This document shows, piece after piece, positions 3,013 through 38,579 of a stretch of DNA of 64,000 bases. Under the pieces are notes generated by a model that worked only from the letters and a program-made list of their open reading frames with translations, was not told the origin of the DNA and did no database searches. A program made the translations under genes and the position numbers. This DNA is from Isoetes taiwanensis. Taxonomy: Eukaryota > Streptophyta > Lycopodiopsida > Isoetales > Isoetaceae. Positions within the stretch are counted from its first letter, which is position 1; the number at the start of each line of letters is the position of its first letter. The stretch is taken from positions 372,001-436,000 of the forward strand of contig JAJEKV010000187.1 of NCBI GenBank assembly GCA_021234155.1, read 5' to 3'.

Positions 3013-4279
3013 ATGGCCAACACCAAGAGTACCGTGGACCCCGCTACCCTCACCATAGCCCAGATTTATGCCTTAATCGCGCAGCATATGGCTACTGACC
3101 CTGCCTTGATTGATATACTTCTGGATGAGTTGGTAAACAGATTTGCTAACGACGATAGGATACCCTATCCCATCTACCATTACTCGGAGCAGTTTTTTGG
3201 TCAGGCTGAATCTCCGACAGCTTCCTTATACCATGGCCGAGCAACCTGACTTGGTCATGATGCTAATTAAATTTTACCCTCTCGAATGCGAGGGACACAC
3301 TGAGGAGGAGGACATAAGAACAGAGGCCGACCGTATCCGGAATTTGGCCAGGGAGGATGACCACAGGGAAGTGGAACGAGCCGATACGGCGGCTCGAGAT
3401 AGGGAATACAGGTATCTAGGGGATGGAGTCGCCGTCATTGATGGCAGGGCCATCGAACTTCCCCCATATGAGTGGCATGAAGCTTCCCAGAGCTTCATGT
3501 GGGGACAGATTCCTGACATCAGCCTGGATTATTTGACGACGATCCAGATTGATATGAACCAGCGGCCCGATCGATACCACGCCGAACTCCTTCGCCGCAT
3601 TGTAGAGAGACGGTACAATGAGATTGAAGAAGACCTCAGGAGAGCTCGGGAGTTCCGGGAGGAGCAGGAAAGGATCCAAAAGGAAAAGGAGGAGAAGGCC
3701 CGACAAGAACAGCAGGACCAGCAGGGTAATGGGAGGCCAGAGAATGAGCAGGGGCCAAACCAGACGGAAAGGACGCCCATTAAGCACTGGAGAAAAGCCG
3801 TTGCCCGAAAGTCCGGCAGCCAGTACAAGGAGAAATTGAAGACCGTCGGAGCTTTTGGGAAGAACGTGAGTTCCAGCCGGAGGCAGGAAAGGGTGGATGC
3901 CTCCCAGCCCCGTCCTGTTGTTGGGGGCAAGGCGATACCACGGCAAAGGGGCCCGCCTCCCAATCCTGCTCCACCAAGGAAGCCCCACCGGTATAGACCC
4001 GGTACCGTGGCCTTACGGGAGATCCGTAAGTTCCAGAAGTCCACGCAACTTCTGATACAGAAGCTGCCTTTTCAAAGGTTGGTTCGGGAGATAGCCCAAG
4101 AATTTAAAACCAACCTCCGTTTCCAGACCTTCGCCATCCTAGCACTTCAAGAGGCTGCAGAAGCCTACTTGGTGGCACTTTTTTGGTGATGCAAATCTTT
4201 GCGCTATTCACGCAAAGAGAGTCACTATAATGCCAAAGGATTTGGCCCTCGCCCGCAGGATTCGGGGAGAGCGTCCTTA
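3013..4279 (+). pseudogene. ORF1: histone H3 fusion with long tail insert (copy A)
   Basis: The first frame starts MANTKSTVDP, resembling the H3 start MARTKQTARK, and runs to about 3230. A shift moves reading into a frame open to 4189. Next come an acidic and charged region, a Glu/Lys/Gln-rich helix likely to be coiled coil (about 3620-3720), an ARKSG motif, and GGKAIPRQ resembling H3 GGKAPRKQ. From about 3984 there is a near-canonical H3 core: [16 protein letters not shown], then [12 protein letters not shown] and [13 protein letters not shown] single extra T near 4180 shifts the last part, where [12 protein letters not shown] and RRIRGERP stop at 4279. By eye the core is about 84% identical to plant H3, without the loop-1 insertion of CenH3. 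Tyr at position 41 and Leu at 90 resemble H3.3. Function is unknown; nuclear, nucleosome-related action is inferred. Confidence 0.85.
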
Positions 4280-4317
4280 GGAAATTTTTGGCGAATATCT
4301 GCATTGTAAATATTTTT

Positions 4318-4470: not shown

Positions 4471-5482
4471 ATGGCTGCCACCGACCTACTTGCATGCTAC
4501 CAGGATGGAGAGCATTGGGATCCACAGGTGCCCTTCGACCTGTTACAGCCCTTTCTATGACAGCGCCTTGACCTCATCTCTAATATGCAGCGGCACCCAG
4601 ATTATGCCGGATTCTTAGAGTTTTATACAGAGGAGATGCTTCCTCTGTGTATTCCTCTTGGGGAACGTCCCCAGTTGTATCTAGAACGGGATGTAGTCCG
4701 AGATATGCTAGGGGGTGACACCCACACATATGATGTGCTGAAGGGCAAGCTTAGATGGGGCAAGCAGTTGCCAGTTGTGCAGCATCAGGGGCGACAACAT
4801 CTTGAAGTTGCCTTTGCCCTAGCCATCCTCATGGATCAGTACGTTGAGGATGAGACATTGCCCCGCTGAGAAAAGGCGAACTTCCTGAGTCTTCCGAGGA
4901 GGAAGAGGATGAGCACATAGGCATGGGTGACTTCGCCCGTTGGAAGCAATTGGCAGAGGAGATGCCACCACGTCGGGAACAAGCTGCACGCTTGTCCGGG
5001 CTAGACGCCCTTCCAGTTGTGTATCACCAAGGGCAAGAGTATCTTCTCTTGGATGATATCATCTGGACTTATCACATAATGGCGGGTTTAAAGCGCCCGA
5101 TGCAAGGACCATGTATTCTATGAGTTAGCGATCTTGTATGGATGACTTCATCGACTTAAGCTCCTAATGACCTTCCCGGGAGAGTGCAGGCGACTACTCA
5201 ATTCCACGGGGAGACCATAGAGCCGGTGAGACCTTGCTACGGCTTCGGGAACTGGTGATGCAGGATCCGCCATCTCAACCTTCACCGGATGCCTTTACAG
5301 CTATGGGACCTCATGTCCCAAATATTAATATGGTCGGAGTTCCCTCCGGTTCGGATGAGGAGGGAGAGGATCTATACCATAATCCCCGCTCATTTGAAGG
5401 AAGGAAGCGGCGGGAACTTAGGGAAGAAGAAGTCCCTATGGACTTGGATAAGGAGGTTGCCACGTCGGAGACCATAGAGTGA
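4471..5482 (+). pseudogene. ORF2 of H3-chromovirus (copy A), unknown function
   Basis: The start MAATDLLACY is followed by one in-frame TGA at 4558. The frame then stays open to 4867 and continues after a small shift (SSEEEEDEH) to about 5122, with a last part at 5234-5482 ending in an acidic and basic stretch. Two segments look like repeats of one module: LPVVQHQGRQHLEVAFALAI and, about 80 residues later, LPVVYHQGQEYLLLDD. Copy B has a matching start (MATSDF) and a matching module (GTKYFFFNTALAIFL), so the gene is conserved between the copies. No known family was recognised. It lies between the H3 fusion and ORF3 and seems to have its own promoter. Confidence 0.6.
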
Positions 5483-6760: not shown

Positions 6761-6839
6761 TCTCTAAATACTATCTGAAATGACATTCTTTGTGAGACTT
6801 CATGTCACTATAATTCTGCTTATACCTTTTTATACTCAA

Positions 6840-7970
6840 TATAGACGGTGCACGCAACGCCGCATGGCAGACACCCTTGAATGCCAGTCGACTAACACCT
6901 GAGCAGGAACTTATGTTGATGAAGAGACAATTAGTCGAGTTACAAGCTTATGTGCTAAACGCCAACCCACCACAGCATATGCAGGAAGACGGACCGGAGT
7001 TACCTCCGTTACCGCCAAGCCCACCACCACAGCAGCCACTTGCACCTGAACCAGGCCCCGTGCCTGCACAACGGAGGCACCATTCCAAACGTCGTCGGAG
7101 TTCCTCTAAGGACAGTGCCACCTCCTCACAATCAGCCACTTCGGTGTCCTCTGGGTCGTCTGTATCATCCGGTGACCATGCAAAGCGCCGAGACAAGGAG
7201 TACCATAAGACGGTTGATATGGCCATAACTACTATATGGAAGAATAGGAAACTGGCCCAGTTTGATGGGAAATCTAGGGGCGGACTGAATGCAGAGTCTT
7301 GGTTGGATGAGATGAAGGAGTTTGGAAAATCCTACGGTATATGACGAGAAAAGGATCTGAGGAAAGGTTGCCACCACAAACCTTCTGAGGAGCTACCGTA
7401 TTTGGTGGAAGGGCTATGCGAGCCAAGCATCACGGACGGGGAGCGGATGCAAGTTTAAAAAAGTTTGCCAAAGCCTTTAAGTAGCATTCGTGCCTCGTGC
7501 GCACAAATGCCAACAGATTCAAACTTTTGCGGTTGGAGCAAAAAAGTATGTCGATTCAGGCCTACAGATGAATTCATGCGCTGAGGCTATTTGTCTTAGG
7601 GTATGAATGAAAAGAGAGGCGGTGGAGGTTATATTGAAGGGTTGGCCCCATCAATTAAGCGAATGGTTAAGGCCATAGACCCCAAGTCGGTTGCAGAGGC
7701 TGAGGCTAAGGCTAAGGCATTGAGCCTTGAAGAGGACGGACCCAAAGCCGGTTACCAACGCCCGACACCTTACTCCCGATACGCCCGTACACACCTTATA
7801 AGGGCCGTTCACCCAGTCTGGGACCCTCTCAGCAGAACTCTTCCGGCCGCTAGGAAAAGAAAGTCACCTTCAGCACGCCCGATAAACCGAACAATGTCGG
7901 TAAAGAAGTTCAGAACCTCTTGCAGTCCATTCCCAAAGAGGCTCGAGAAACGACTCGGCCAGAGATAAGG
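6840..7970 (+). pseudogene. Gag of chromovirus copy A, broken
   Basis: The frame open to 7344 has LTPEQELMLMKRQ, a Pro-rich stretch, a basic and Ser-rich segment and then AESWLDEMKEFGKSYGI. The last matches copy-B gag (AEAWLDEMSEYGNAYGM). Later pieces (YIEGLAPSIKRMVKAI, 7625-7680) match copy B (YIEGLNEEIRKLVRAI) in another frame. The CCHC zinc knuckle near 7975-8030 is ruined: only a C..., ANCPYV pattern remains where copy B has CFRCFQPGHRTTNC. Several frameshifts and stops make this non-functional. Confidence 0.7.
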
Positions 7971-8039
7971 CATGCCCTGCGGTGTATCGCGGCCCCGCAC
8001 TTCATCTGCGAATTGTCCTTATGTCCGCATGAGGTTGCC

Positions 8040-8520
8040 GGTGGCCATGGCCGCCTCGATTGGGATGACCTCGAGTCCACATCACCTATCGAGGAGGAGG
8101 CTCCCGAATACATTCACGGTGAGTCCCATATCCTTGCAGCTATTGAAACCGGCAATGCTGAAATTCAGCCTGCCGTTATTTCCACCATAGGTCAAGTAGA
8201 CAGCAAACCTTTCATAATTCTGATGGATACGGGTAGTACACATAATTTTGCTTCTCCTAGAATGGCCCGGTATTGCGGCTTGACACTTTGAGGTCCCGGC
8301 CAAAGCTGTCACTTTAGCCCGATGGTAAGATCGACACACTCATGGCCGTTGCATTAACCTTAAGATGCAGTTGCCAGGTGCACCAGTTGCCTTGGGTGCC
8401 GAGATAATGGATATTGGCAAATATGATCTTATTGTTGGTATGGAATTCTTGGCATCTGCAAAGGCCAATATAGACTGCAAGAAACGGGAAGTTACCTTCA
8501 ACGCCGCTAATGGAGCGTGA
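8040..8520 (+). pseudogene. Retroviral-type aspartic protease, copy A
   Basis: A frame to 8291 contains FIILMDTGSTHNFASPRM, the DTG active-site loop typical of LTR-element proteases. After a shift, KYDLIVGMEFL (about 8420-8450) matches the conserved (I/V)(I/L)G(M)(E/D)-L motif of the second half. Copy B has the same layout (DSGSSHNFASPRM, then YDLIIGMEYL). At least one frameshift separates the two halves, so the enzyme is broken. Confidence 0.75.
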
Positions 8521-9690
8521 CTATAAAAGGTGATCCATTCAACCCTATTATGCAATCTATGTCCATCAGGCAGTTAGAAAAAGCTATACGCAAGGATAAG
8601 CTCCTCTGCATCATTAGACTTGCCTCCATTGAGTCAGATGCTAAGCAGAAGCAACTAATCGATACCTTACCAAAGGGGATTGCTAATCTTCTCCAGAAAT
8701 TTAGCGATCTTTTCCCAGATGAGATCCAGAAGCTTCCTCCTTTTAGAGGGGTAGAATGTGAGATAGCTCTAGAACCAGGTACTAAGCCTACCAAAGAAGG
8801 CCCGTCTGCGCATGAGTCCCCGAGTTGGCGGAGCTTAAGAAGCAACTTCGGGAATTACTAAACCTAGGTTTCATTAGGCCTAGTGTTTTAGCCTTTTTTA
8901 GGCGCTTCTATCCTTTTGTTAAGAAAAGGATGGCTCCTTGAGGATGTGTATTGATTATAGGCAGCTCAATAAGCATACCATCAAGAATCGTTAAACAGCC
9001 TAGAGGCGGATGATCTAATGGACCAATTGCAAGGGGCCAAATATTTCTCAAAGATTGATTTACGCTCCGGATATCATCAAATAAGGATTAAGGAGGAGGA
9101 CATCCATAAATTTGCTTTTCACACTAGATATATGGGCATTATGAGTTTACGTTATGCCTTTTGGATTAACTAATGCCCCACTTTTATGCGGTTAATGAAT
9201 GATGTCTTACGTCAATACTTGGATGACTTTGTTGTTATTTTCTTTGATGACATTCTCATCTATAGTAAAACTCTAGAGGAGCATGAGGCCCATCTTAAGC
9301 TTGGCCTACAAAAGCTAAAACGTCATCGACTCTTTGCCAAGTTCTCTAAATGCAAGTTTGCCACTCCCAAGGTGGATTATTTGGGACATATCATTTTAGC
9401 AGAGGGAATTGCTACAGATCCAGCAAAGATAGAGGCAGTAAGGGATTGGCCTATTCCAGGTAATGTTTCAGAAGTCCGAAGTTTCTTAGGACTAGCGGGA
9501 TATTATCGGAAATTTGTTAAGGATTTTGCAAAATTGCCGCACCTCTTCTTGATCTCACAAAGCGAGAAGGTGAAGGATTGGATTGAACATTGGAAAGCAA
9601 AAGTCCAGGTAGGCTTTCAAAGGCTTAAGGATGCTCTAACGTCAGCACCAGTCCTCACATTGCCCGATCTGAAAAGGATAAATTAGTGGC
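8521..9690 (+). pseudogene. Ty3/gypsy reverse transcriptase, copy A
   Basis: Motifs appear in order: FPDEIQKLPPFRGVECEI (RT entry) near 8712, [14 protein letters not shown] near 8946, a broken [17 protein letters not shown] near 9058, and MRLMNDVLRQYLDDFVVIFFDDILIYSKT (9186-9270) with the FFDD catalytic box. KVDYLGHIILAEGI and SEVRSFLGLAGYYRKFVKDF follow. The second half (9186-9686) is open; the first half is shifted. Sequence agrees well with copy B, so both belong to one chromovirus lineage. Confidence 0.85.
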
Positions 9691-10040: not shown

Positions 10041-10100
10041 ACCCATTGTAATGCAATTTCCACACTCACCAGTGAGTTTGGGAAACAGATAGAACAAACC

Positions 10101-11614
10101 TTGGCCACGAATTCCGAGTTCCGTGATGTTTGGGGTAGTTTGAATAAGGAGGCTTGCACAGATAAAGAACGTGAAGCTTTCCGTTCGTATAAGAAAGAGG
10201 GCAACTTGTTATATTACAAGGATAAGTTGTGTGTACCTGAGACTTCAGGAGTGCGTAAGCTAATTCTCCATGACATGCACAACAGCCCTATAGCTGGACA
10301 TGCAGGTTTTATGAAGACCTACTTTAAGATCCGCTCCAGTTATTTCTGGCCTTCTATGAAAAAGGATATTGCTAGGTACATTAAGCAGTGTCAGGTGTGT
10401 CAGCAAACCAAGGCTGAGCAATTAAGAATTCCAGGAGAGTTGCAACCTCTGGATGTGCCCAACGCTAAGTGGGAAGTGATAACCATGGATTTCATTGTGG
10501 GCCTTCCACGTACTCTCCGTGGATATGATGCATTGATGGTAGTGGTCGACAAATTGTCGAAAATGGCTCATTTCTTGCCATGTCATACCACGGATACAGC
10601 CTTCGATACTGCTCTGCTATTTGCAAAAGAGATCTTCAGATTGCACGGAATGCCTCGAGTTATTGTATCCGACAGGGATCCCAAATTCGTAAGTGTATTC
10701 TGGAAAGATTTCTTTGCCACCATCCAGACAAAGCTTGCTATGAGTACGGCCTATCATCCTCAGACGGATGGTCAGACAGAATGTACCAATTGTATTATAG
10801 AGGATATGCTACGAAGTTATGTGTGGAGTAAGCAATCACAATGGGCTGACTATATTTATCTAGTCGAGTTTGCCTATAACAGTATGAAACAGGAATTTTC
10901 CAGAATGTCTCCCTTCATGATAAATTATGGTTATCAATGCCTTACTCCAGACACATGGCATAACCCAGTTTCTAAGGTGGAGGTTTCTCAACAACTTCTC
11001 TTACAAATGCAAGCTTTGGTTGATGAAGTTCGGGGTTACTTATTAGCTGCACGCAGCCGTCAGAAGAGTGTAGCAGACAAGCACAAAACCCCACGAATCT
11101 TCCAGTGGGCGACTCAGTTTGGCTTAAGATTAAGGTAAAGCAGGCCAAACTTAAAATTGGTAACTGCAAAAAGCTGGCACCCAGATGGGCTGGGCCATTC
11201 AAAATCATTGAACGTGTTGGAGAACAGGCATATCGCTTGGAATTGCCACCCCGCTTGAAGATCCACAAGGTCTTTCACGTGAGTCTTCTGAAACAACACA
11301 CCCCTGATCCAGAGGAGGTTTTGGATATCCCAACCCTCCTAGAAATGACAGAGGAGCAGCTGGAGGTAGTGCCTGAAGCTCTTCTTGATCGAGCTTATAA
11401 ACAAACCAGAAGGACTCAAATGTTGCAATATTTGGTTAAGTGGAAACACTTACCAGTTGAGGATGCTACCTGGGTGATGGAGATAGACCTTGAGAAGCAC
11501 TATCCGGACTTCATGCGGGAATCTCAGGGCCGCACCATCAACGATGCTATCAACCCCGCAGCCGGCGGTAAGCTTGAAAGCTTGATTGCCAAGGGTAACG
11601 CTCTAGAGGGGTAG
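10101..11614 (+). pseudogene. Integrase with C-terminal chromodomain, copy A
   Basis: The frame 10101-11138 holds the H2C2 zinc-binding part (HDMHNSPIAGHAGF, then CQVCQQTK). The catalytic core follows with Asp in MDFIVGLP, Asp in VIVSDRDPKF and Glu in TDGQTECTN. A shift near 11100 leads to the frame 11105-11614. That frame holds the GPY/F-like segment (APRWAGPFKIIERVG), HVSLLKQHTP and a chromodomain, LQYLVKWKHLPVEDATW, followed by acidic DLEKHYP. Chromodomains in this position define chromoviruses and target integration through histone-tail marks. A single frameshift near 11100 separates the catalytic core from the C-terminal part. Confidence 0.9.
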
Positions 11615-12639: not shown

Positions 12640-14070
12640 TGGAAATCCGCCGAGTCTATTTTTTGCTGTATGCCTGTGGGATATTCATCCTGGTTTTTCT
12701 TCAAGAACCCTAAGAAAATTGATGGCAAGATCTAGAAATCTAGCCTAACTAATAGGCAAATCATGACCAAACCGGCCCGATTTAACCCTTTTCATGCCAA
12801 GAACTTCGCCAAGAACAATAAAAACTCCATTTGTTACTGTCAGAGATAGAAATCGAGCCACGTAAGGGGTTTCATTCGAAAAGGGGACATCAACTTCTAA
12901 GGCAATCATGGCTACAGCACCTCAACTGACTATTCTACAGGTCAAGAAAAATTTTAGCAGGCATAAAAGGCCAAATCCAATCTATTTCACCAAGAACCGA
13001 CCAGAAATTGTCGGGTTTAAGAGAATGATCGGGCTTCAGGGATTCTTCGAGCACCACAGTGCCTTGAGTGATCAAATCCAGCATCCTACTGATTGGAATG
13101 ACCTCTGTTTGAACTGCATTGCCTCCTTGTGTCAGATTTCTTGAAGATCTGATGCAATAAGGTCTTATATTATCCTTTGAAGTTATGTATTACCTTTGAT
13201 TCATACATTTCGTGAATTTTCCTATGCCAAATTGCTGGGGAATTCATTCATTGTAAACCTTGGAAGCTCCTTTAAATGAAAATTTGAAGTTGTGTGCATT
13301 GTATTGATCCAAAGTTCGAGTATTGGAAGCACCATCTATGCCATAGCAGTGCCCGAGTCTCAACAACAAAAGTGTCTGTGGTTTGTATAACTTATCTGGG
13401 TTTAAATATTAATCTAGAGTGCACATTTCATTACTGCATTGTTTAGTTACTGGAAATTCATTCTAAAATAAAAAAAATTAGCCAAACAACATTTTGTGTC
13501 AAGTCTTGTTCACCTACAGCCTGCACCCATCTCTAGCAAGTTGTTTCCTATTCATAAAAGTCCAAAAAATCATGTTGAGCCTTATCTCAAAGCTTGTTTT
13601 CTAGCTCTGTCTCAGACTGTCACAAAAAAACTGCATTTTTGCACACAGTAGCAATTTTTTGTTGTTTTAAGTTGATGCACATGTCCTACATGTTAGACAG
13701 AGGGTGTCAAAGAAAGAAATTCTGAAAGAATCCTCACACTCTCTCATCTGCAAATTCGAGCTCTCTGCCAGTTCTATTGACCAAAAATTGACCCAGTCAG
13801 AAGGCGTATTTTCACCTAGTTCTGGTCAACCTTTTGCCTTTGACTTTTGCAAGAATCTTCCAGAGTCTTCTGAGGATCTATTGCAAGTGTTTCCATCAAA
13901 AAAGAATCTTCCTATCTCATTTGGCAATCAAAGTTTGGTGGACAGTTGTTTCTTGTTTAGGGTAAATTTGAGTTGATTTGTGCAGGGATCTAGCTACAGA
14001 TTGGTTGCCTTAAGCAACCTGGAGGTTCTCAACTACTGAGGTTGAAGGTTTGCCAGGAATACCTTCAACA
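12640..14070 (+). repeat. Element C 5' LTR
   Basis: It starts TGGAAATCCGCCGAG and ends ACCTTCAACA, so TG...CA. It matches 35294-36688 along its length with small indels, about 93% by eye. It is followed directly by the primer-binding site. A 78-codon frame (12908-13144) within it also exists in the other LTR. Confidence 0.85.
12908..13144 (+). other. Small ORF inside element C 5' LTR
   Basis: A frame starting MATAPQLTILQVKKNF and containing GFKRMIGLQGFFEHHSALSD is present here and, with a few changes and a shifted end, at 35558-35791. Its presence in both LTRs follows from LTR duplication, so it is not independent evidence of selection. No family was recognised. Confidence 0.25.
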
Positions 14071-15248: not shown

Positions 15249-16811
15249 TGTGACGTTCCAGCACAGTATACGGTCCCAGGACGCACACTGTACTGCCCCG
15301 TCACGCGTACACGCCACCCCGACTGATGTGTAGCCAAGTGGGTAGCCCCTAGGGGGCAACTTACTAGGTATGTGCATTTATTATTAATGTGCACATTTAC
15401 CAATGTGCACATTAATGTGGGCACACCTTTCCATGTGGGCACATTTTGCCACCTAACTATTAAAGGCAAGTGGGCCCATTCCCAATTATCCCACATGCTT
15501 AAAGGGATAATTGGAAACCCTAGCCCTAAACCCTTGTCTATTTAGGTTAGGAAAACCCTAACTTGCCATTTTCGTCCATAAGGTTTTAGAGCTCTGTTTT
15601 GGCTGCCCCATGAGCCAAAACCGCCTCCCAGAAGCTGTGCAAGCGAATTGCACCATTAGTTCTCCTTGATTCGGGCAATTCAGCAGGATGGTGGAACTCA
15701 GGTCAGGAGGAGCCACTCAAGGATCAGGTATGTAGTCAAATTAATAGTCTAAACCTTCTTCCAGTTCTTATATCAGTAGGTTTAGCCTATTACCTCGCCC
15801 TTAGCAACTATCTAGACCTCTAGATACCAGACTCTAACTAAAGAACCTAATTCTATGACATAGATTAGATCTAGTTCTTTAGCTCTCTGTGTTGTATATG
15901 GATGATGTATATCTGTGAGCTCCTTGTATTGGGAAGGGGGGTAGAGACCTCAAGTTTGGTAGTAGATGCTCCTATAGATTAGCCTCTCTAGCACACTGTA
16001 GATTCGGCCTGTGTACAAGAACCACACCTGGTTGTGGGTGAAGGGGCCAGACTGGCTAAGAAGGGGGTTCATGTCCTGACTCTTGAACGATCCCTCTGGT
16101 GTGTAAGGCCTACCAGGGATCATTGTGACTAGGTCTAATGGCTTACCACTGAGTGCGGGTGAGGCATGGACTCGACACCCGTGAAGTGGTGTACACTTTC
16201 CAGTGGGTTCAGTCGAAGACGGGCAGTGGCCCTCTAGTCACCTTGAGTCAGCATGTAGATCTCTGGAGGGAGTGATCCCTTCCTGCCCCATCGGAACTGG
16301 GAGGATGAGACCCAGGAATAGCCCCTTTGGCTATGCATCCGGCGGGCTACAGTCAGGTCCCGACACTTTTCAGCCTACTCTGCAAAGTGTGCACAGGAGG
16401 GGCGGATGGAGTGGACAACCCTATGCCATGTTCTTAGGCCTGCCAAATCCATTGCCATGAATTCTGTCTGCAATAAACTCTGGGGGCCCAAGCTGTCAGT
16501 CATCCCTTCGAGTCTGAGCCTTGGGTAGGACCCCTATGTATGATGCTGATCATTGTCTATGCAGATGTTGATGCACCACCCTTTGAGGTGGATATATGAT
16601 TATGTTGTATACTGACATGTATGTTTACGCTTCCGCAGCTAGGTAGGCCCTGAGGGAGACGGGGTAAAATGACCCCTTCACTCTTCCCACTGGAGACCCA
16701 GTACGGTCACAGTGATATGTGGAGGGCCCTGTATCAGCATGGAGCTGGTATGGGGGAAGAACTCCTGTTTGTATACGATGCGAGCACCGTATACGAGTGG
16801 GGGACGTCACA
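15249..16811 (+). repeat. Copy B 5' LTR
   Basis: It begins TGTGACGT and ends ACGTCACA, a perfect 8-bp terminal inverted repeat. It equals 28138-29700 in length (1563 bp) and is nearly identical to it except for the first 80 bases. The region 15378-15445 has repeated TGTGCACATT palindromes. It is followed at once by the primer-binding site. Confidence 0.85.
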
Positions 16812-16971
16812 GTGGTATCATAGCAATGTTATTGGAGACCAAGAGCAAAGCACTGACCATGCTCCCAGTAGCACTAACTTGATAGGATCCTCAAACCTCG
16901 AAAATTGGGAAATTTTTTTCTCATTTTTGTAGTTTATGCTAAGCTAGCAACAGTTAAGTGAATTGGAACGT
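16812..16971 (+). promoter_or_regulatory. Primer-binding site and leader of copy B
   Basis: One base after the LTR is TGGTATCATAGC, one mismatch from TGGTATCAGAGC, the plant initiator-Met tRNA primer site. The 160-bp leader ends GGAACGT. The whole 160-bp block occurs again directly after the 3' LTR (29701-29860), there with the perfect primer site. Confidence 0.75.
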
Positions 16972-17015
16972 AATAAGACTAAAAAGAATGAACCAAAACC
17001 TTCTCAGGTAAGGTG

Positions 17016-17082
17016 GTCTCACAACTCGCGCCTGGTCAAAGAACTACACTTTAGTTTTTGAGCAGGGCGCTACCTGTGAGAC
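17016..17082. repeat. 67-bp inverted repeat, copy 1 (upstream of H3 gene)
   Basis: The unit runs GTCTCACAACTCGCGCC ... GGCGCTACCTGTGAGAC, with a central AACT-A-ACTTTAGTTTTT. The arms are complementary, so it can form a hairpin or bind a symmetric factor. It is one of four units, all exactly 67 bp long. Confidence 0.85.
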
Positions 17083-17197
17083 ATCGAGCCAAGAACACAC
17101 TAAACTTGATGAATTTGACAAAAGTAATATGGTAAGGCTAGTTCCAAGGTAAGAATTAGTTAGAATAGCATGTTTAAATTACTTAAAAATGTGTAAG

Positions 17198-17264
17198 ATC
17201 TCATAGCTAGCGCCTGGACTAAAAACTAAACTTTAGTTTTTGAACAGGGCGCTACCTGTGAGAC
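17198..17264. repeat. 67-bp inverted repeat, copy 2 (upstream of H3 gene)
   Basis: It starts ATCTCATAGCTAGCGCC and ends GGCGCTACCTGTGAGAC, with centre AAAAACTAAACTTTAGTTTTT. It lies 182 bp from copy 1 and 102 bp before the TATA box of ORF1. Confidence 0.85.
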
Positions 17265-17365
17265 CAATAAGTAGGAAAAGTCTGAAATAAGTGTAAGTTT
17301 TAAGTAAATATGTGCCTTGGCATGTTAAATAGAGCTATTTGAATTTCGACCTAAAAATTGCCAAG

Positions 17366-17474
17366 CTATAAATAGAAGTAGACCCCCTCATTTGGACGTT
17401 CCCACCTTAGAAATCTGCTCCAGCTCCCTTAGGCGATCTTTGGGCGGTGATATCCGATCGACGAACCGTCAAGC
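17366..17474 (+). promoter_or_regulatory. TATA box and 5' leader of ORF1 (copy B)
   Basis: CTATAAATAGA at 17366 is a strong plant TATA box. The leader contains CTCCAGCTCCCTTAGGCGAT and leads to ATGGCA at 17475. The same order, CTATAAATAGA, then TGCTCCTGCCCCCTTAGCCGAT, then ATGGCA, occurs before ORF2 at 19378-19500. The two promoters are therefore duplicates of one module. Confidence 0.7.
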
Positions 17475-18772
17475 ATGGCACGAACCAAGCAGACTGCCAG
17501 GAAGCCTCGTCCAGGCGAAACCACGAGCGCCACAGACGCCAACCTTATTCGGCAGATGCTTCGTGAGAGGCTAGCAAGGGGGGGCCGTTCGCCTTCGAGC
17601 GAGGACGACATCCCAGGAGATCAAGATACATCTGATCTGATTGATGTTTTCAATCAGCAGGTGGATCAAGATGAGGCCGCATCACCGACTTCCATGGACG
17701 AGGAGACAAGGGAAGTTTACGAGGAGATAGAGCGGGAGATTCAAGAGCAGGAGGGGAAAGAGAACCTCTCTGATGCAGCAACAGAGATCCTCGAGGAAGA
17801 GGAGGAGGGAGTACAATGGGAAAGGAGAACAAAGGAGCGGCAAGAGCACAACGGGCCAAGGCTCGAGCCAAGCGAAGAAGAAGACCTCACAGCATGGATT
17901 GCGAAACATGAGAGGAAACAACGGCGCCGGGAAAGCAAGAAGAGGAAGAGGGAAGAGGAGGCGAAAGCGACAGAGGAGAAGAAGAAGGCAAAGGGAAAAT
18001 TCGTGGTGGGCGAAAGGAAGCTCAAGCAGGGGAAGGGCCCGAACTCCAAGATCGTCATCACTGAACGGCCACCTGATCAACCACCGAACTCCTCCGACGA
18101 CTCCTCCGACGAAGACTTCAACCCCAACACCGGAGGTGGAAGCTCTTCTAAACCCCCAGCGACGAAAGGGGTAGTAACGGAGGCATAAACGCCTCGAAAG
18201 GGAGCAGCCGGGCCAGTACGTAAGCCCCTCCTTATCCGGCGGGACAGAAGAAGCAACCACGGCCCGCCCGAGTCGTATGTCACGTAATCGTCAAAATCTA
18301 TGAGCTAAGATGAGAGAGAGCACGAGGCTTACATGAAGGAGTGGAGGCTTACAACTCCTACTACCGAGAGAATAGGATCGTAACCATCGAAGGGGGACAC
18401 CCAACAAAGCAAAGAGACCCTAAGACCGGGCCGCCACCAAAGCCCAAGGTCCCAAAAAGCCAAAGAAAGAAGAAGCTTACCAGGAAGGAGGCCGAGCAGA
18501 AGGCACTACGGGAGATTCGGCACTTCCAGCGCAGTTATGGCCTCCTAATCCCCTGTGCCCCCTTTGCCCATCTAGTCAGAGAAGTGATGCAGGACTTCAA
18601 GACTGACATGAGGGTCACGGATGAAATGCTACTGGCATTACAGGAAGCGGCGGAGCAGAAAATAGTACAACATTTTGAAGACTCGACGGCTTGCACTGTT
18701 CATGCGAAGCGAGTGACACTGATGAGGCAAGATATGCAACTTGCTACTCGCATCAAGGGAGAGCGACCTTGA
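17475..18772 (+). pseudogene. ORF1: histone H3 fusion with native H3 tail start (copy B)
   Basis: The protein starts MARTKQTARKPRPGE: after Met, residues 1-9 equal the H3 tail, including Lys4 and Lys9, while Ser10 is replaced by Pro. A 237-codon frame follows, with an acidic region, a strongly basic stretch (KQRRRESKKRKREEE) that may be a nuclear localisation signal, and a Ser/Asp-rich end, stopping at 18188. After about 150 bases with shifts, a frame open to 18772 holds a basic linker and a divergent H3 fold: [47 protein letters not shown] and RIKGERP. Identity to the copy-A fold is about 57% by eye. Both folds share a final Pro (GERP) and Phe for the H3 Tyr in RRYQ. ATG 17475 is 99 bases after the TATA box. 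Confidence 0.85.
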
Positions 18773-18920
18773 ACATTTTGCAAATAGTTAAAAAAAATTT
18801 TTGTAATATAATCAATTTTGAATACTTTATGTGTGTCTGAACTTGTTTAATTAGGACAAATTAGCAGGATCTAGTACTTGTTTTAGTGAAATAGGACATT
18901 TGCAGACCGAAAGGTGAGAT
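18773..18920 (+). terminator. Probable transcript end of ORF1 (copy B)
   Basis: After the stop codon the sequence is A/T-rich (AAAAAAAATTTTTGTAATATAATC) as expected for a 3' untranslated region. No canonical AATAAA was seen. It lies between the H3 gene and the next hairpin pair. Confidence 0.3.
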
Positions 18921-18987: not shown

Positions 18988-19120
18988 CTTGTCCAAACTT
19001 GCCCAAAACAGCTCCAAATTGACCAAATAAGGGGTCAATTCTACCTGATTTGATGAGTTCGTCATCCTTACACCCTTAAGTTACCTAAATTGGACACGTT
19101 TTGATCAAAATGGGACTGAT

Positions 19121-19377: not shown

Positions 19378-19499
19378 CTATAAATAGACCCTTATTTTAC
19401 ACATAGCACCCTCCAAATTTGCTCCTGCCCCCTTAGCCGATTTTCCAACTCCCTGAGGCGCTCTTGCAACCGTTTGCTACTCTCTTCCTCACTAAACTC
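19378..19499 (+). promoter_or_regulatory. TATA box and leader of ORF2 (copy B)
   Basis: CTATAAATAGA at 19378, a leader with TGCTCCTGCCCCCTTAGCCGAT, then ATGGCA at 19500. This mirrors the ORF1 promoter in sequence, spacing and its pair of upstream hairpins. Confidence 0.7.
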
Positions 19500-20130
19500 A
19501 TGGCAACCTCTGATTTTTGCAGATGGTACAGCGCCAGCGCTCATGCTGCCGAGGCTGACATCGATGAGATTTTCCGTGTCTTTCGGAAGGAGATAGATGT
19601 CCAAGCAACCTTGCATGCAACCCCAACCTATATAGCGAGTCCCGTCCAAATTTCAAGCTAGGGTAGAGCCATCACTAGTGCAGCTTCCACCTTCGTAGGC
19701 TACTTTGTTCCTAGGCAATCCCTTCAAAAGCGACTTTAGGCGATGTTCCAAACATTGCCAAGTATCTCACAAATAAGGCCCAAATAAGACGCTGAGCCAA
19801 TGGTCCCCGATCACAACGGGACCAAATACTTCTTTTTCAACACTGCCCTAGCAATTTTTCTTACCCACCGTGTAAAGAACCCCATGGGAGAAACCTCCAT
19901 TCCACCCATGGACGGGACCCATTAGCCACAAAGAAGAAGACTAAACAGACTCCTTACGCGCCAGCATCTAACAATAAGGAAAAGAAGAAGACGAGGAGAC
20001 GGAAAGAAGAGGATGAAGACTACGTCCGAGCTCACCCAGTAAGAAGAGCAAAAAGCGAGAACAAGAGTGGCAAGACTTGAAAGAAGCCAGCCGCGTAACA
20101 AAGAGTGGCGGGATCGATCGCCACCCCTTG
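19500..20130 (+). pseudogene. ORF2 of H3-chromovirus (copy B), broken
   Basis: The start MATSDFCRWY parallels MAATDLLACY of copy A. The first frame ends at 19661. Later pieces in other frames include NIAKYLTNKAQIRR and GTKYFFFNTALAIFLTHRV, the latter aligning with the copy-A stretch GRQHLEVAFALAILMDQYV. A Lys/Arg/Glu-rich segment (KKKTRRRKEEDEDY) follows, like the acidic linker in copy A. No known family was recognised. Conservation of start, central module and position in both elements supports a real gene. Confidence 0.5.
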
Positions 20131-20237
20131 GGCTAGGCATCACAAGCCTAGCCCCCATCGTTGTCGAGGGCTAAGAATTTTTTGCTCTAAAGCGACATCC
20201 AAAACCTCGGTGCGGGGAAAGGGAGTATCGACCTGAG

Positions 20238-21029
20238 TTGCCGCACCAACTCCCGAGAACGGACATCACGACTTCATCGTCCGGAACCTCCCGACTTCCC
20301 CCTCCAAGTAAAGGAAGTCCGACACTTACACGCCCGGAGAGTCGACCTCAGATATCCAAGCCTACAACAACATCAGGCATTATGGAGGCGGACCAACCAC
20401 CGACAGAAAGAGTTCCTTGCTCTACGAGAAACCATGGGGATCCGCCCGCGACCTCGAACATTTTAACGGCAAGCTCTTCGGCAACGCCTCCCCGGGAGAG
20501 AAGAGGCGAGTTCGACCCCAGAAGAGCTTCAGCAACAGTCAGAGACTACAGGGAGCTCACCACGGTGGAGGTTGATGACTATCGCGAGGCGGAACCGCAG
20601 GGAGGCCGGCGAGGGCGAGGATCCACGCACGGCAGTCGTTCGCGGTATTACCTTCCCCTGCTGATGGATGGAAGAATAGCGGTAATTCACCGCAAATTCA
20701 CCCCCAGGGGCGAGGAAGGAGTATCGATGCTAATTGCGCTCTCAGGCTTTGGCCGGCATGCTCGGCTACCCCTCAACACCGAGTATGCCATCTTGGTGAA
20801 GAGAGCGGTAGCACTCGATGTTTTTGACTTCGCCATACCTTACAGACGGCAGGGAAGACTGGCAGTGACCGCCGCCTATACCTCCGAGCGCAGGATAGAA
20901 GAGTTGGCGAGAGCTTTGCAGGGGGGATCTTCAGTCAACGTCCTTAGGAACTTAGGTCATTCAGTGGGAACAGCCCAAGTGAAGAAGTTCCTAGAGGATA
21001 ATCCATCCTACCGGCGATATCAAGAATAG
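20238..21029 (+). CDS. ORF3 of H3-chromovirus (copy B), unknown function
   Basis: This 263-codon frame is intact, but its start is uncertain: the first codon that fits the 20238 start is TTG or similar, and the first clear ATG is near 20383 (MEADQPP). The N-terminal part is Pro/Ser/Thr-rich and looks disordered. The C-terminal 130 residues look folded, with YYLPLLMDGRIAVIHRKF, YAILVKRAVALDVFDFAIPY and NVLRNLGHSVGTAQVKKFL. No family was recognised. Weak matching pieces occur in copy A at 6120-6580. It precedes gag by 288 bases. Confidence 0.5.
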   Translation: MPHQLPRTDITTSSSGTSRLPPPSKGSPTLTRPESRPQISKPTTTSGIMEADQPPTERVPCSTRNHGDPPATSNILTASSSATPPRERRGEFDPRRASATVRDYRELTTVEVDDYREAEPQGGRRGRGSTHGSRSRYYLPLLMDGRIAVIHRKFTPRGEEGVSMLIALSGFGRHARLPLNTEYAILVKRAVALDVFDFAIPYRRQGRLAVTAAYTSERRIEELARALQGGSSVNVLRNLGHSVGTAQVKKFLEDNPSYRRYQE

Positions 21030-21316
21030 TTAGGAATCTTGATCCCGTAAGTCTTTTTGTAACTTCTTTTTGCACTTTAAATGTTTTGTTGATGTATTTT
21101 TGTTCCACAACTATACCAACATCACATATAATGCAAGAGAACAAATAAAACTAACTATATAGCCATGAACTACTTGTGTATGCAGCTAGAGGCCTAGGCT
21201 CAGGGGAACGACAACGCCGAGACCATATGGAAGAACAGTCTCCGCCCAGGCCACCCCCGGCAAGGAACTTGTTTGAGGAATTCGGACCCATGACCCCGGA
21301 ATAGGAAATATCACAG
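21030..21316 (+). other. Spacer between ORF3 and gag (copy B)
   Basis: T-rich sequence (CTTTTTGTAACTTCTTTTTG) follows the ORF3 stop, then AACTAACTATATAGCC and a short leader to the gag ATG at 21317. No gene was seen. It may hold an ORF3 transcript end and a gag leader. Confidence 0.35.
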
Positions 21317-23302
21317 ATGAGGACAGACCTTGAACAGATAAAGGCCTTGCTGGCAGCACAAGCAGGAGCGGGTTCGGTGGGCAACGCTCAGTTGCCGCAA
21401 GCATCAGCTCGGAAAACAGGAAGAGACAAGAAGAGGAGCAAGAGAAGGAGGTCCTCCAGCTCGGAATCATCCGACTCAAGCTCAGATTCGGACTCCGACT
21501 CCGAGGAAGAGGAAGAGCAGGCCCAAGACCGAACGGATGGAAGGCAAAGGAACACAACAGACGCAAGGCACAGGGACACCATAGATGGACGACAAAGGGA
21601 CACCAGAGCCTCTGACTACCGGAAGAAGGTAGATTCTCGCGACCGGCAATGTATGGAAGGCCCAAACTCCCAACAGCTTCCTGGGGAGAACAGTCGTCGA
21701 TTAGAAGCAGAGGCATGGCTGGACGAAATGAGTGAGTACGGCAATGCATATGGCATGAAGGATAAGGACAAAGGTAGAGTGGCTATAGCTAACTTGAAAG
21801 GAGCCGCACGCATTTGGTGGAAGGGTTATGTAAAGGCCCACGGGTTGAGCAGGGATGCTTGCAAATTCAGAAAGTTTGCTAAAGCCTTCAAGCGCCATTA
21901 TGTCCCAAGAGAGCACAAGTCCAGCATGATGCAGCAGTTCTACAGGTTGCAGCAAGGCAACAAATCAGTCCAAAAATATACAGAGGAATTCATGAGGCTA
22001 AGGCTTTATGTGCCAAAGTTGGGCGAAAAACATGCAGTGGAGAGCTACATTGAGGGGCTGAACGAAGAGATCCGCAAGCTTGTAAGGGCAATAAACCCTA
22101 AGACAGTATCAGAAGCGGAGTCCAAGACAATAAGCTTGCAAGGAACGGGGCCGCATAATAGCGGGCAGAGGCAGCAGTATCACCAGGATAAAGGCAAGGC
22201 AACAGGGAGTTATAGCCCTAGAGCAGCCAGTCCGGGTCCAGCTAGAGCCCCATATGGGGGCAACCAAGGGAAGCAGCAAGAGAAGAAGCAGGTGTCCTTC
22301 AAGGACAAGCAGGAAGGGTCAAACTACTCCAAAGCAGTGAGGTCCTTTTTGCAGGCAATGCCCAAGGAAAAGAGGCAGGAGTGCATAGAAAAACAGCTTT
22401 GCTTCAGGTGCTTCCAGCCAGGCCATAGGACAACGAACTGCCCCTACGTCATGAGTGCAGCTTTAGCAGAGTTGGCAGATTGGGACACGCTGTCTGACGA
22501 CGACGGCGAGGCAGCCCGCGACTACATTCAGGGTGAGTGTCATATCTTTGCCGCAATAGATACAGAGCAAGCAGAGAGCCAGTATAAAGTAATTTCCACA
22601 GTAGGAAAGGCCAAGGCCAAGTCCTTCATAGTCCTGATAGACTCGGGAAGTAGCCATAACTTTGCATCCCCCAGAATGGTTCAAATGTTGAAGTTGAAAC
22701 CACTAAAGTCAAAGCCGAGACCCGTTGTCTTAGCAAGTGGAGCAATAAGGCAGACGGCAGGTAAGAGAATTAATTTCGACATCGACTTGCCAGGGATTAA
22801 TATCCAGATGGGGGCAGAGGTAATGGGCATTGGCAAGTACGACTTGATCATAGGAATGGAGTATCTTGGACCAGCAGGGGCCATTATTGATTGTGGAAAG
22901 CGGAAGGTGACCTTCCCAACGCCCGACGGCAAGATCATTGAGATCACAGGTAAAGAAGTTATTCCCATCATGCAGTGTATGTCTTCTAAACGGCTGTTCA
23001 AGTGCATCAAGAGCGAGCAAGTAGCATACATCTTCAAGCTTGAGATTGATGAGCCGGAGTCAGAAGAAAGCAAAGAAGACAAGGTGCTCAGCAAGCTGCC
23101 GAAGCAAATAGCTAACTTGATCACGGAGTTCCATGACCTCTTTCCAGATGAGATCAAGCAGCTTCCTCCTTATAGGGGAGTCGAGTGTGAGATAGCACTC
23201 GAACCGGGAACAAAGCCGACAAGTAAGGCTCCATACGTAATGACGAATGCAGAGTTGAGTTGGCCAGCTAAAGAAGCAATTGCGGGGAGTTGCTCGACCT
23301 AG
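21317..23302 (+). CDS. Gag-protease and start of RT, copy B
   Basis: One 661-codon frame. Residues 1-90 are a leader with an acidic Ser-rich tract (SSSESSDSSSDSDSD). Gag proper has AEAWLDEMSEYGNAYGM, IWWKGYVKAHG, FAKAFKRHYVPREHKSSMMQ and YIEGLNEEIRKLVRAI. A CCHC knuckle, CFRCFQPGHRTTNC, lies near residue 360. The protease follows with FIVLIDSGSSHNFASPRM (about residue 440) and YDLIIGMEYL. The RT entry FPDEIKQLPPYRGVECEI is near the end. The last 20 residues are out of frame with the following RT part. Gag-Pro-Pol as a single frame is usual in chromoviruses. Confidence 0.9.
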   Translation: MRTDLEQIKALLAAQAGAGSVGNAQLPQASARKTGRDKKRSKRRRSSSSESSDSSSDSDSDSEEEEEQAQDRTDGRQRNTTDARHRDTIDGRQRDTRASDYRKKVDSRDRQCMEGPNSQQLPGENSRRLEAEAWLDEMSEYGNAYGMKDKDKGRVAIANLKGAARIWWKGYVKAHGLSRDACKFRKFAKAFKRHYVPREHKSSMMQQFYRLQQGNKSVQKYTEEFMRLRLYVPKLGEKHAVESYIEGLNEEIRKLVRAINPKTVSEAESKTISLQGTGPHNSGQRQQYHQDKGKATGSYSPRAASPGPARAPYGGNQGKQQEKKQVSFKDKQEGSNYSKAVRSFLQAMPKEKRQECIEKQLCFRCFQPGHRTTNCPYVMSAALAELADWDTLSDDDGEAARDYIQGECHIFAAIDTEQAESQYKVISTVGKAKAKSFIVLIDSGSSHNFASPRMVQMLKLKPLKSKPRPVVLASGAIRQTAGKRINFDIDLPGINIQMGAEVMGIGKYDLIIGMEYLGPAGAIIDCGKRKVTFPTPDGKIIEITGKEVIPIMQCMSSKRLFKCIKSEQVAYIFKLEIDEPESEESKEDKVLSKLPKQIANLITEFHDLFPDEIKQLPPYRGVECEIALEPGTKPTSKAPYVMTNAELSWPAKEAIAGSCST

Positions 23303-24010
23303 GCTTCATTAGACCCTAAGCGTTTTTCGCCCGCTTGGAGCGCCCATTCTTTTTGCAGTTTGAGGATGTGCATAGACTATAGGCAGTTGAACAAGCACAC
23401 CATCAAGAACAAATATGCGCTCCCCAGATCAGATGACTTGATGGATCAGCTCCAAGGTGCAAAGGTCTTCTCCAAAATCGACTTAAGGTCAGGCTATCAT
23501 CAGATCCGGATAAAGGAAGAAGATATTCATAAAACCGCTTTCAGAACGCGGTATGGGCACTACGAATTCACGGTAATGCCTTTTGGCTTATCAAACGCCC
23601 CAGCAACGTTCATGAGGCTCATGAACGACATCTTCAGGGAGTTCCTAGACACCTTTGTGATAGTTTTCTTTGATGACATTCTGGTGTATAGCAGATCCCT
23701 TTGAAGAGCATGTGCAACACCTTAAGGAGAGTCTTTGGAAAAGTTGAAGAGGCACCGGTTATGCGCCAAGTTGTCGGTGCCACTTCCGCCTTGAGGAGAA
23801 GGTGGAATACCTTGGTCATGTGATCTCAACGAAGGAATCTCGACGGACCACCTTAAAGATTGAAGCCGCCATTCAAAGGCCCGCACCGAAGAATGTGCAT
23901 GAGGTCGAAGTTTTCGGCCTAGCGGTACTACAGAAGTTCGTGAAGAACTTTGCTAAGATAAGCGCCCCGCTAACGGACTTAACGAGGGCGGAGAAAGTGA
24001 AAGATTGAGC
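23303..24010 (+). pseudogene. Reverse transcriptase core, copy B (frameshifted)
   Basis: The frame 23360-23704 carries [58 protein letters not shown] and [10 protein letters not shown] with the FFDD catalytic box. Beyond 23704 the thumb and connection region is present only as short pieces, for example VEYLGHVIS and ISAPLTDLTRAEKVKDW, separated by single-base shifts. Copy A has the same region open, so the breaks are specific to this copy. Confidence 0.85.
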
Positions 24011-24700: not shown

Positions 24701-26019
24701 CCTCCATGACACACAACAGCCCAATAGCTGGCCATGCGGGATTCATGAAAACATATTTCAAAGTCTGCCGCAGCCTATTATTGGCCGAAATGAAGAAGCG
24801 GTAGCTTCGCTACATCGAATGTCGGCTATGTCGCCAGATGAAGGCGAGAAAGCAGCAATTCCAGGGCATTAGAGCCATTAGCGGTGCCAAAACGCTAAGT
24901 GGGAGGTGATCGACATGGATTTCATTACTGGGGCTTCCAAGGGACGGTAAGAGGGAAGGATGCCTTGATGGTAGTGGTCGACAAGTTGTCGAAGATGGCA
25001 CATTTTGTGCCTTTGCGAGGACCACGATCTGGCTATGGATACAAAGAAAGCTCTTCACCAAAGAGATCTTCGGCTTCATGGCATGCCAAGGGAGATTATC
25101 TCCCACAGGGATCCAAAGTTCATGAGTGCCTTTTGGCAAGACCTCTTCACGACCATTAGGGGCGAAGCTATCCATGAGCGCGGCATATCATCCTCGAACC
25201 CCGGATGGCCAAACCGAGCGGACCAACGGGATTACGGAGGACATGCTACGGAACTATGTCTGGAATAAGCAAGGTATGTGGAAAGAATTTATTCACTTGG
25301 TGGAGTTTGCTTACAATAGCACCAAGCAGGAATCATCCCAAATGTCGCCGTTTATGATTAATTACGGCTATCAATGCCTAACTCCAGACACTTGGCACAA
25401 CCCCGTGTCAAAAGTAGAGGTTTCGCAGCAGATGTTGTCCGACATGCAGCAGCTCGTGGAAGAAGTTCGAGGATATCTGCTAGCAGCAAGAAGTCGACAG
25501 AAGAGCATCGCCGACAAGCATCGAACAGTCAGAGAGTTCCGAGTTGGAGACGATGTATGGCTCAAGATCAAGGTGAAGCAGGCGAAGCTCCGCATCGGTA
25601 ATTGCAAGAAGCTTGCTCCAAGGTGGGCTGGACCCTTCAGAATAGTCAAGAGAATAGGTAATCAATCCTACAAGTTAGACTTGCCAGCACACCTAAAGAT
25701 TCATAAGGTCTTCCACGTAAGTTTGTTGAAGAAGCATACTCCAAATCCAGACGAAGTCTTGGACACTCCAACGTTGTTGGAAATGACGGAGGAGCAGCTG
25801 GAAATAGTCCCAGAATTGATTCTTGATAAAGCCTTCAAGAAAACGAGGAGATCAGAGTTCCTCCAATATTTGGTCAAGTGGAAACACTTGCCAGTGGAAG
25901 ACGCGACATGGGTACTTAAGAAAGATCTAGTAAAGCAGTACCCACAGTTTATGGAGCAGTGGGACGGCAAGGTCATCTACGAAGAAATCGGCTCAGGCAT
26001 GTCGATTTGTGTAGATTAA
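24701..26019 (+). pseudogene. Integrase with C-terminal chromodomain, copy B
   Basis: The zinc-binding and first catalytic parts (24701-25126) are frameshifted: pieces include IAGHAGFMKTYF, DALMVVVDKLSKMAHFVP and a DPKFMSAFWQDLF segment. From 25126 to 26019 one frame holds the rest: DGQTERTNGITEDMLRNYV with the catalytic Glu, MINYGYQCLTPDTWHNPVSK, APRWAGPFRIVKRIG, HVSLLKKHTPNPDEV, and a chromodomain LQYLVKWKHLPVEDATW. Identity with copy A over this part is roughly 80% by eye. Chromodomains of this class recognise methylated H3 tails, notable beside an element-encoded H3. Confidence 0.88.
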
Positions 26020-28010: not shown

Positions 28011-28137
28011 ATCAAATGGCTATTGGACCTTCCAAGCTGACCTATATTGTATGCATCAAGTTGGTTGCAGGTTAGAACGTCCCCAGGGTGGGGAGAACCA
28101 CGATGCTGCGGACAACATCATTTCAAGGTGGGGAGAA
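28011..28137 (+). promoter_or_regulatory. 3' end of copy B internal region with polypurine tract
   Basis: AAGGTGGGGAGAA directly precedes the 3' LTR and fits a polypurine tract priming plus-strand synthesis. A nearly identical AGGGTGGGGAGAA lies 40 bases upstream (28085), so the tract may be duplicated. Confidence 0.7.
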
Positions 28138-29700
28138 TGTGACGTTCCGGCCAAAGATTATCTGGTCCCGGGGCGCTTTGCTATCTTGCCCGTCAATAGC
28201 ATTACCGCCACCGTGACGATGTAGCCAAGTGGGTAGCCCCTAGGGGGCAACTTACTAGGTATGTGCATTTATTATTAATGTGCACATTTACCAATGTGCA
28301 CATTAATGTGGGCACACCTTTCCATGTGGGCACATTTTGCCACCTAACCATTAAAGGCAAGTGGGCCCATTCCCAATTATCCCACATGCTTAAAGGGATA
28401 ATTGGAAACCCTAGCCCTAAACCCTTGTCTATTTAGGTTAGGAAAACCCTAACTTGCCATTTTCGTCCATAAGGTTTTAGAGCTCTGTTTTGCTGCCCCA
28501 GGAGCCAAAACCGCCTCCCAGAAGCTGTGCAAGCGAATTGCACCATTAGTTCTCCTTGATTCGGGCAATTCAGCAGGATGGTGGAACTCAGGTCATGAGG
28601 AGCCACTCAAGGATCAGGTATGTAGTCGAATTAATAGTCTAAACCTTCTTCCAGTCCTTATATCAATAGGTTTAGCCTATTACCTCGCCCTTAGCAACTA
28701 TCTAGACCTCTAGATACCAGACTCTAACTAAAGAACCTAATTCTATGACATAGATTAGATCTAGTTCTTTAGCTCTCTGTGTTGTATATGGATGATGTAT
28801 ATCTGTGAGCTCCTTGTATTGGGAAGGGGGGTAGAGACCTCAAGCTTGGTAGTAGATGCTCCTAGATTAGCCTCTCTAGCACACTGTAGATTCGGCCTGT
28901 GTACAAGAACCACACCTGGTTGTGGGTGAAGGGGCCAGACTGGTTAAGAAGGGGGTTCATGTCCTGACTCTTGAACGATCCCTCTGGTGTGTAAGGCCTA
29001 CCAGGGATCATTGTGACTAGGTCTAATGGCTTACCACTGAGTGCGGGTGAGGCATGGACTCGACACCCGTGAAGTGGTGTACACTTTCCAGTGGGTTCAG
29101 TCGAAGACGGGCAGTGGCCCTCTAGTCACCTTGAGTCAGCATGTAGATCTCCTCGGAGGGAGTGATCCCTTCCTGCCCCATCGAATCGGGAGGATGAGAC
29201 CCAGGAATAGCCCCTTCGGCTATGCATCTGGCGGGCTACAGTCAGGTCCCGACACTTTTCAGCCTACTCTGCAAAGTGTGCACAGGAGGGGCGGATGGAG
29301 TGGACAACCCTATGCCATGTTCTTAGGCCTGCCAAATCCATTGCCATGAATTACATGCGCAATAAACTCACGGGGGCCCAAGGCGCCAGTCATCCTTCAG
29401 TCTGAGCCTTGGGTAGGACCCCTATGTATGATCTTGATCATTGTCTATCACGGATGTTGATGCACCACCCTTTGAGGTGGATATATGATTATGTTGTATA
29501 CTGACATGTATGTTTACGCTTCCGCAGCTAGGTAGGCCCTGAGGGAGACGGGGTAAAATGACCCCTTCACTCTTCCCACTGGAGACCCAGTACGGTCACA
29601 GTGATATGTGGAGGGCCCTGTATCAGCATGGAGCTGGTATGGGGGAAGAACTCCTGTTTGTATACGATGCGAGCACCGTATACGAGTGGGGGACGTCACA
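28138..29700 (+). repeat. Copy B 3' LTR
   Basis: TGTGACGT...ACGTCACA, 1563 bp, the same length as the 5' LTR. It is almost identical from about 28222 to the end. The first 80 bases differ strongly between the two LTRs. Several small differences near 29350-29460 sit at CAG/CTG triplets. Confidence 0.85.
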
Positions 29701-38560: not shown

Positions 38561-38579
38561 GGGCTTCTGGTGTGGCCTA

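Follow-up and report, generated by a model that had tools for sequence, protein, structure and literature searches.

Does the histone H3 sequence found beside the gag-pol genes of a chromodomain-bearing retrotransposon in Isoetes taiwanensis belong to the element, or does it adjoin the element by accident? Both chromodomain elements recognized in the 64,000-nucleotide stretch of DNA that was analyzed (the window), designated A and B, carried H3, an outer element described below lying outside this count. The reading we favor, with a probability of about 0.55, is that H3 is a resident gene in a lineage of Ty3/gypsy chromoviruses, placed 3' of the primer binding site (PBS) and 5' of gag, and that this gene was captured, extended in its tail and turned to altering chromatin.

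Histone H3 sequences of elements A and B

The main ORF of element A (3137..4189, + strand) encoded a charged N-terminal region followed by alphaN, alpha1 and alpha2 of H3. It matched Pfam family PF00125 over 3137-4186 with 85.6 bits (cut-off 26.4, E 4.3e-24), and its best PDB match was 7ux9_E, 'Histone H3.3' (E 3.9e-34, residues 224-317 of 318), the next H3 in the ranking standing only 2 bits below. Chance similarity to H3 was rejected at such values (E 1e-24 to 1e-34). The initial annotation had described a near-canonical H3 fold behind a long charged N-terminal region, at the end of a 350-residue ORF upstream of gag. The fold (window 3974-4280, +), the charged region ahead of it and the placement were all recovered, with the gag-pol of a chromodomain element downstream on the same strand. 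The 350 residues are correct as a length from stop to stop (3137-4189), while from the ATG at 3233 there are 318 codons; likewise, most of the quoted fold lies at the end of this ORF, except for HAKRVTIMP, which is read in another frame.

This separate frame (4185..4280, +) supplied the remainder of the A histone (loop 2, alpha3 and a GERP end), with 26 of 31 residues as in canonical H3 and 59% identity over 32 residues to B 18674-18769. Over the whole core, 81 of 95 residues were identical to plant-type H3.3. Further upstream, a possible tail-tip frame opening with MANTKST (3013..3246, +) was picked up by the pattern MA.TK.T; only MA, TK and T agreed with H3, and R2, R8 and K9 were not retained. 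In A, candidate tail tip, main ORF and last helix each occupied a frame of their own, so that the gene is disrupted in this copy and extends beyond the 350-residue ORF.

Element B harbored a tail ORF of 237 codons (17475..18188, +) that opened with MARTKQTARKPRPGE, the exact H3 tail tip through K9 (MARTKQTARK), and went on for about 227 charge-rich residues (43 K+R versus 55 D+E in the ORF as a whole). No PDB relative at E 1 and no Pfam family above cut-off were obtained for this ORF. A complete H3 core of 152 codons followed in a different frame (18314..18772, +; PF00125, E 4.4e-29), and was aligned to PDB H3 without gaps through the fold (E 4e-28). The 125 nt between tail ORF and core contained stops in both relevant frames; this break may be an intron or a lesion, and a single protein comprising tail and core is presumed. 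The B core was diverged, with 53 of 95 residues as in plant-type H3.3 and 42 of 95 differing, and its single-sequence structure model was poor (mean pLDDT 50.9).

An H3-type histone fold was displayed by both A and B, without gaps relative to PDB H3 as far as each piece extends. The tail tip ARTKQTARK was exact in B and in partial agreement in A, whereas canonical H3 length and the K14-K36 tail were absent, no canonical sequence being found after K9. The residues C110, H113, R116 and D123, which are important for the H3-H3' interface, were all present in the two cores as read from aligned blocks. By eye, LLIP and RHFQ in the B core appeared to be CENH3-like substitutions. In plant CENH3, loop 1 is longer than in H3, whereas B was aligned to H3 without a gap at loop 1. 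An identity as CENH3 was rejected, with no loop-1 insertion in A or B relative to H3; no CENP-A or CENH3 name occurred among the best 60 of the 175 PDB matches of the B core, these 60 being H3.

Organization of the two elements

The initial annotation implied a second copy and proposed looking for LTR elements with H3 between the 5' LTR and gag; element B, first noticed in a self-comparison as directly repeated sequence at 15.3 and 28.2 kb, is such an element (1563-bp LTRs, PBS and polypurine tract), its H3 at 17475-18772 lying between the two LTRs. It spanned 15.2-29.7 kb with all genes on the + strand, in the order LTR, PBS, H3, gag-protease (PR), reverse transcriptase (RT), integrase C-terminus, chromodomain, polypurine tract (PPT) and LTR. 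The 5' LTR (15249..16811, +) and the 3' LTR (28138..29700, +), each of 1563 bp, started with TGTGACGT, ended with ACGTCACA and differed by 32 substitutions over 1548 aligned positions, with 30 gap columns (K2P 0.021, or 2.1%). The PBS TGGTATCATAGC (16813..16824, +), presumably of the initiator tRNA-Met type, adjoined the 5' LTR, and the PPT GGTGGGGAGAA (28127..28137, +) was recognized by eye.

No duplicated flank was found as a target-site duplication of B. Past the 3' LTR, 160 nt of B internal sequence including the PBS (29701-29860) were present, with TGGTATCAGAGC at 29702, after which the outer element resumed; this arrangement may be a tandem or template-switch product. The outer element surrounding B was itself an LTR element, with repeats of about 1.4 kb at 12640-14070 and 35294-36688 (89% identical) and its own gag and RT.

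The gag and protease of B were encoded at 21305..23302 (+; PF03732, 5.9e-18; PF19259, 6.8e-16; PF08284, 2.8e-9), followed by a piece of reverse transcriptase (23303..23704, +; PF00078, 2.8e-27) and by the C-terminal part of the integrase with the chromodomain (25126..26019, +; PF24626, 1.4e-22; PF22938, 2.8e-6; PF00385, 2.9e-10), the integrase core being located by alignment to A and not by Pfam. The pol of B (23303-25126) was spread over several frames despite the LTR difference of about 2%, through old lesions or assembly indels. With pol in several frames past the first RT piece, B is not intact either.

In element A, gag and protease were found in broken frames by alignment to B gag-PR (6814..8291, +), with segments 7075-7341, 7361-7474, 7603-7761 and 7854-8270 in the same order as in B at 32-45% identity; by itself, 6814-7341 gave no gag family in Pfam. 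The end of the protease and the counterpart of the B reverse transcriptase (8332..9686, +) were recovered as blocks 44-90% identical to B 22748-24005. Integrase and chromodomain followed at 10041..11614 (+; PF17921, 4.4e-21; PF24626, 2.7e-23; PF00385 Chromo, 4.5e-9), the integrase core PF00665 scoring 1.1e-7, 0.1 bit under its cut-off. Neither LTR of A was found within the 64-kb window. As gag and pol of A were in pieces to the same degree as its H3, the breaks in A are those of a dead copy. Both elements displayed the gag-PR-RT-integrase order of Ty3/gypsy chromoviruses with a chromodomain after the integrase, in broken frames, and B had LTRs, PBS and PPT as well. No protein or element in the window was intact, the H3 of A, the tail and core of B, the gag-pol of A and the pol of B all being frame-broken.

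Extra non-gag ORFs, none with a known domain, were present between H3 and gag in both A (4471-5479) and B (20175-21029), and H3 may not be the only additional gene of the element. In B, a broken ORF2 starting MATSD (19500..19658, +) matched no Pfam family, and ORF3 (20175..21029, +; ATG at 20382, 215 codons) showed no known domain. The second non-gag ORF of A was reduced to remnants in broken frames (4471..5479, +; pieces 4471-4557, 4561-4866, 4854-5120 and 5171-5479), the last three of which matched no Pfam family above cut-off. Similarity of these pieces to B 19788-19922 was weak (equalled by 3 and 8 of 200 shuffles, among 16 pairs); in the best of the 16 pairs, 3, 8, 12 and 13 of 200 shuffles were as good. 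Two blastp matches between an ORF2 piece of A and the B LTR (E about 1e-3) were treated as noise.

The H3 gene may be a separate transcription unit within the element, judging from signals in the sequence. A TATA-box-like site, TATAAATAG, lay 108 nt 5' of the H3 ATG in B (17367..17375, +) and another lay 121 nt 5' of the ORF2 ATG (19379..19387, +). The leaders of the two B genes were alike (score 57 versus a maximum of 38 among 200 random sequences), while all five leader comparisons involving A fell below their own random maximum, the leaders of A being unlike those of B. Two imperfect palindromes of 72 nt were found on the + strand 5' of H3 in B (17013-17084 and 17195-17266; z -5.5 and -7.0 as RNA) and two more 5' of ORF2 (18918-18989 and 19118-19189; z -8.7 and -4.4). 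As RNA, none of the four was equalled in folding by any of its own 200 shuffles, and a window search with one of them returned only these four copies. An AATAAA was located 51 nt past the H3 stop in A; no exact AATAAA occurred in B between 16812 and 21143.

Sequence judged by eye to be LINE-like occupied 1-2790, ending in ATTCT repeats just upstream of A (573-995 matched no Pfam family), and, reversed, 26840-28000 (minus) inside B. Elsewhere in the window, pieces of a PPR-repeat protein were found at 52960-54143 (minus; PF01535, E 2e-17, at 53472-54143), which together with the kinds of element present point to a land-plant host, and a long purine-rich low-complexity tract with internal repeats and many mechanical ORFs extended over 36690-38580.

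Shared architecture and constraint on the core

Elements A and B were similar in spacing on both sides of the H3 core, with 979 nt (A) and 1010 nt (B) from tail tip to core, the distance between the end of the core and a gag anchor being 2798 nt (A) and 2659 nt (B). Their protease-pol blocks were collinear in order at 41-90% identity, and integrase C-terminus plus chromodomain were 64% identical over 173 residues. GPPPxP preceded both cores, and both ended in GERP rather than GERA. The pattern MA.TK.T, chosen post hoc once both sites were known, occurred at only two sites in the six frames of the window (3013 and 17475) and at none in 60 first-order Markov windows. According to the initial annotation, the link would be refuted if H3 lay beside gag-pol only by chance insertion; within the window, the collinearity of A and B contradicts this outcome, and a host H3 simply adjoining gag was rejected on element B.

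The shared architecture makes a single capture more likely than two, without proving it. Two independent captures, or recaptures at a favored site, in place of one ancient capture would be the less expected history, which we consider improbable at present, and the core sequences themselves lend it some weight: A was closer to canonical H3 than to B, with which it was identical at only 51 of 95 residues, and F54 and the terminal P were the only core residues shared by A and B against H3.3, few enough for two captures to keep a share of the probability. The inserts between tail tip and fold also appeared unrelated in sequence. Blastp without composition correction gave 22% identity over 151 residues (E 7e-4), but the score was equalled by 32 of 500 shuffles, so that homology of the inserts was not accepted despite this E value. 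Against two captures stand the near-equal spacing on both sides and the linker, terminus and tip motifs common to A and B. The proposal that a host H3 was captured and its tail grown by an insert is thus upheld in part: the gene order of B and the core at the same place in A support it, while the inserts were not detectably homologous.

The H3 core showed a third-position excess among A-B codon differences, with 46 at first, 28 at second and 67 at third positions over 95 codons (chi-square p 3e-4). Corresponding counts were 50/33/111 over 173 codons of integrase C-terminus plus chromodomain and 9/3/29 over 42 codons of RT. No stops were found inside the 95 core codons, A and B each being read in its own frames. 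Host H3 hardly changes, and most of the divergence of B should therefore have arisen inside the element, with the core frame kept open. Such constraint points to a function within the element; it is drawn from two sequences whose third positions are near saturation, and could partly predate capture. Given the collinear spacing and the third-position bias, H3 has the appearance of a gene that resides in this chromovirus lineage under constraint.

Proposed role, alternatives and known systems

In the favored reading, a chromovirus would have captured a plant H3.3-type gene once, and a long charged insert of about 325 codons would have displaced or split the region linking the tail tip (ARTKQTARK) to the fold. 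An internal TATA-containing promoter of its own would drive the gene, and the long-tailed H3, its fold intact, would pair with H4 and be loaded into nucleosomes by host chaperones. There it would alter chromatin, either on element DNA itself or where the element inserts. Because B lacks a canonical tail beyond K9 and has a net acidic charged arm instead, weakened silencing would be the likeliest benefit to the element. Anti-silencing is accordingly put forward as the first choice of role, with targeting as a second, and the chromodomain of the element would be an obvious possible partner of the H3 tail tip.

Alternatively, H3 could be a passenger, transduced from the host, functionless for the element and decaying in both copies. 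Plant LTR retrotransposons do hold captured genes, such as the 1343 transduced sequences reported in sorghum (PMC13317346), and the H3 frames were interrupted in A as well as in B. The gag-pol of A was equally broken, however, which assigns the interruptions to a dead copy, and a passenger would hardly be expected at equal position and spacing in elements differing at about a third of residues in integrase C-terminus and chromodomain, nor with a third-position excess and a B core open over 152 codons with 42 of 95 residues unlike H3.3. We regard this explanation as doubtful.

A role in integration, with the element H3 acting in the pre-integration complex as a tether, or marking sites for integrase and chromodomain (e.g., newly assembled or H3.3-rich chromatin), also appears unlikely. 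A chromodomain was encoded in both elements, the tail tip of B keeps K4 and K9, and the best PDB match of A, by 2 bits, was H3.3, the replication-independent type. The tip of A, by contrast, lacks R2, R8 and K9, and both chromodomains were matched best by a Chd1 chromodomain protein (2dy8), not by HP1. We take 2dy8 to be the second chromodomain of yeast Chd1, which fits the matching of 2h1e at 121-174. As judged by eye against HP1, two of the three HP1 cage aromatics, the first and the third, appeared to be missing from both A and B. Group II plant chromodomains likewise lack these aromatics and have no known ligand (PMC3350952).

The favored role and targeting could be combined in a private chromatin mark, which the element would write with its own H3, carrying a chromodomain-readable tail tip, and also read, the resulting nucleosomes marking its DNA or landing sites, recruiting integrase and resisting silencing through the charged arm; this is the more speculative proposal and is given a somewhat lower probability than either H3 targeting or a passenger gene. 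Although the region is heavily nested, a host gene or pseudogene hit or flanked by unrelated elements is a very improbable source of the H3 core, since the LTRs that enclose the H3 of B are 98% identical and accompanied by PBS and PPT, and A shows the same arrangement. An origin from a DNA virus or pararetrovirus was rejected, as B has LTRs, a PBS and a chromodomain.

Among the matches listed in a literature search, restricted mostly to papers outside subscription, no LTR retrotransposon with a histone gene was described. The string 'retrotranspos' was absent from a 2022 review of viral histones, as was 'histone' from a 2026 review on genes captured by transposable elements of plants (PMC13317346). 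Scans of viral contigs with the H3 of A, the H3 of B and the integrase C-terminus plus chromodomain of B returned 52, 11 and 51 pattern matches, respectively, with no confirmed relatives. If intact expressed copies exist, the lineage would offer a natural experiment on manipulation of the nucleosome, the host's own silencing unit, by a genomic parasite. An H3 whose tail tip and fold are separated by more than 300 inserted residues would in addition make nucleosome tolerance directly testable.

In the order of gag, PR, RT, integrase and chromodomain, A and B resemble those plant chromoviruses whose chromodomains are of group II (e.g., the CRM, Tekay and Reina types) and which have a tRNA-Met-type PBS; we know of no histone gene in plant chromoviruses. 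Ogre/Tat elements similarly carry an additional ORF between the 5' LTR and gag, but they belong to a different lineage and their ORF is not known to be a histone. To our knowledge, captures of host sequences by plant LTR elements are mostly single and recent. Bs1 and Rider also hold host sequence within an LTR element (PMC13317346), whereas here the position is shared by two diverged elements.

Histones of DNA viruses are already known (PMC9145170). The H3 of a xenomavirus, of Dishui Lake phycodnavirus and of a sylvanvirus share the conserved H3 fold with the element histones, the xenomavirus tail being 35 residues longer, but these are DNA viruses with much shorter tails and without LTR, gag-pol or chromodomain (PMC9145170). 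Closest in kind, and the best-studied parallel known to us, is the bracovirus H4 (CvBV-H4/CpBV-H4), a host-like core histone with an added N-terminal tail in a mobile genome: with its 38-residue extension it enters host nucleosomes, and its effects require the tail (PMC5423620, PMC9145170). It differs in being H4 rather than H3, with 38 residues compared with about 325 codons, and in being encoded on a DNA virus segment that acts in the parasitized insect, while the H3 described here is carried by an LTR retrotransposon.
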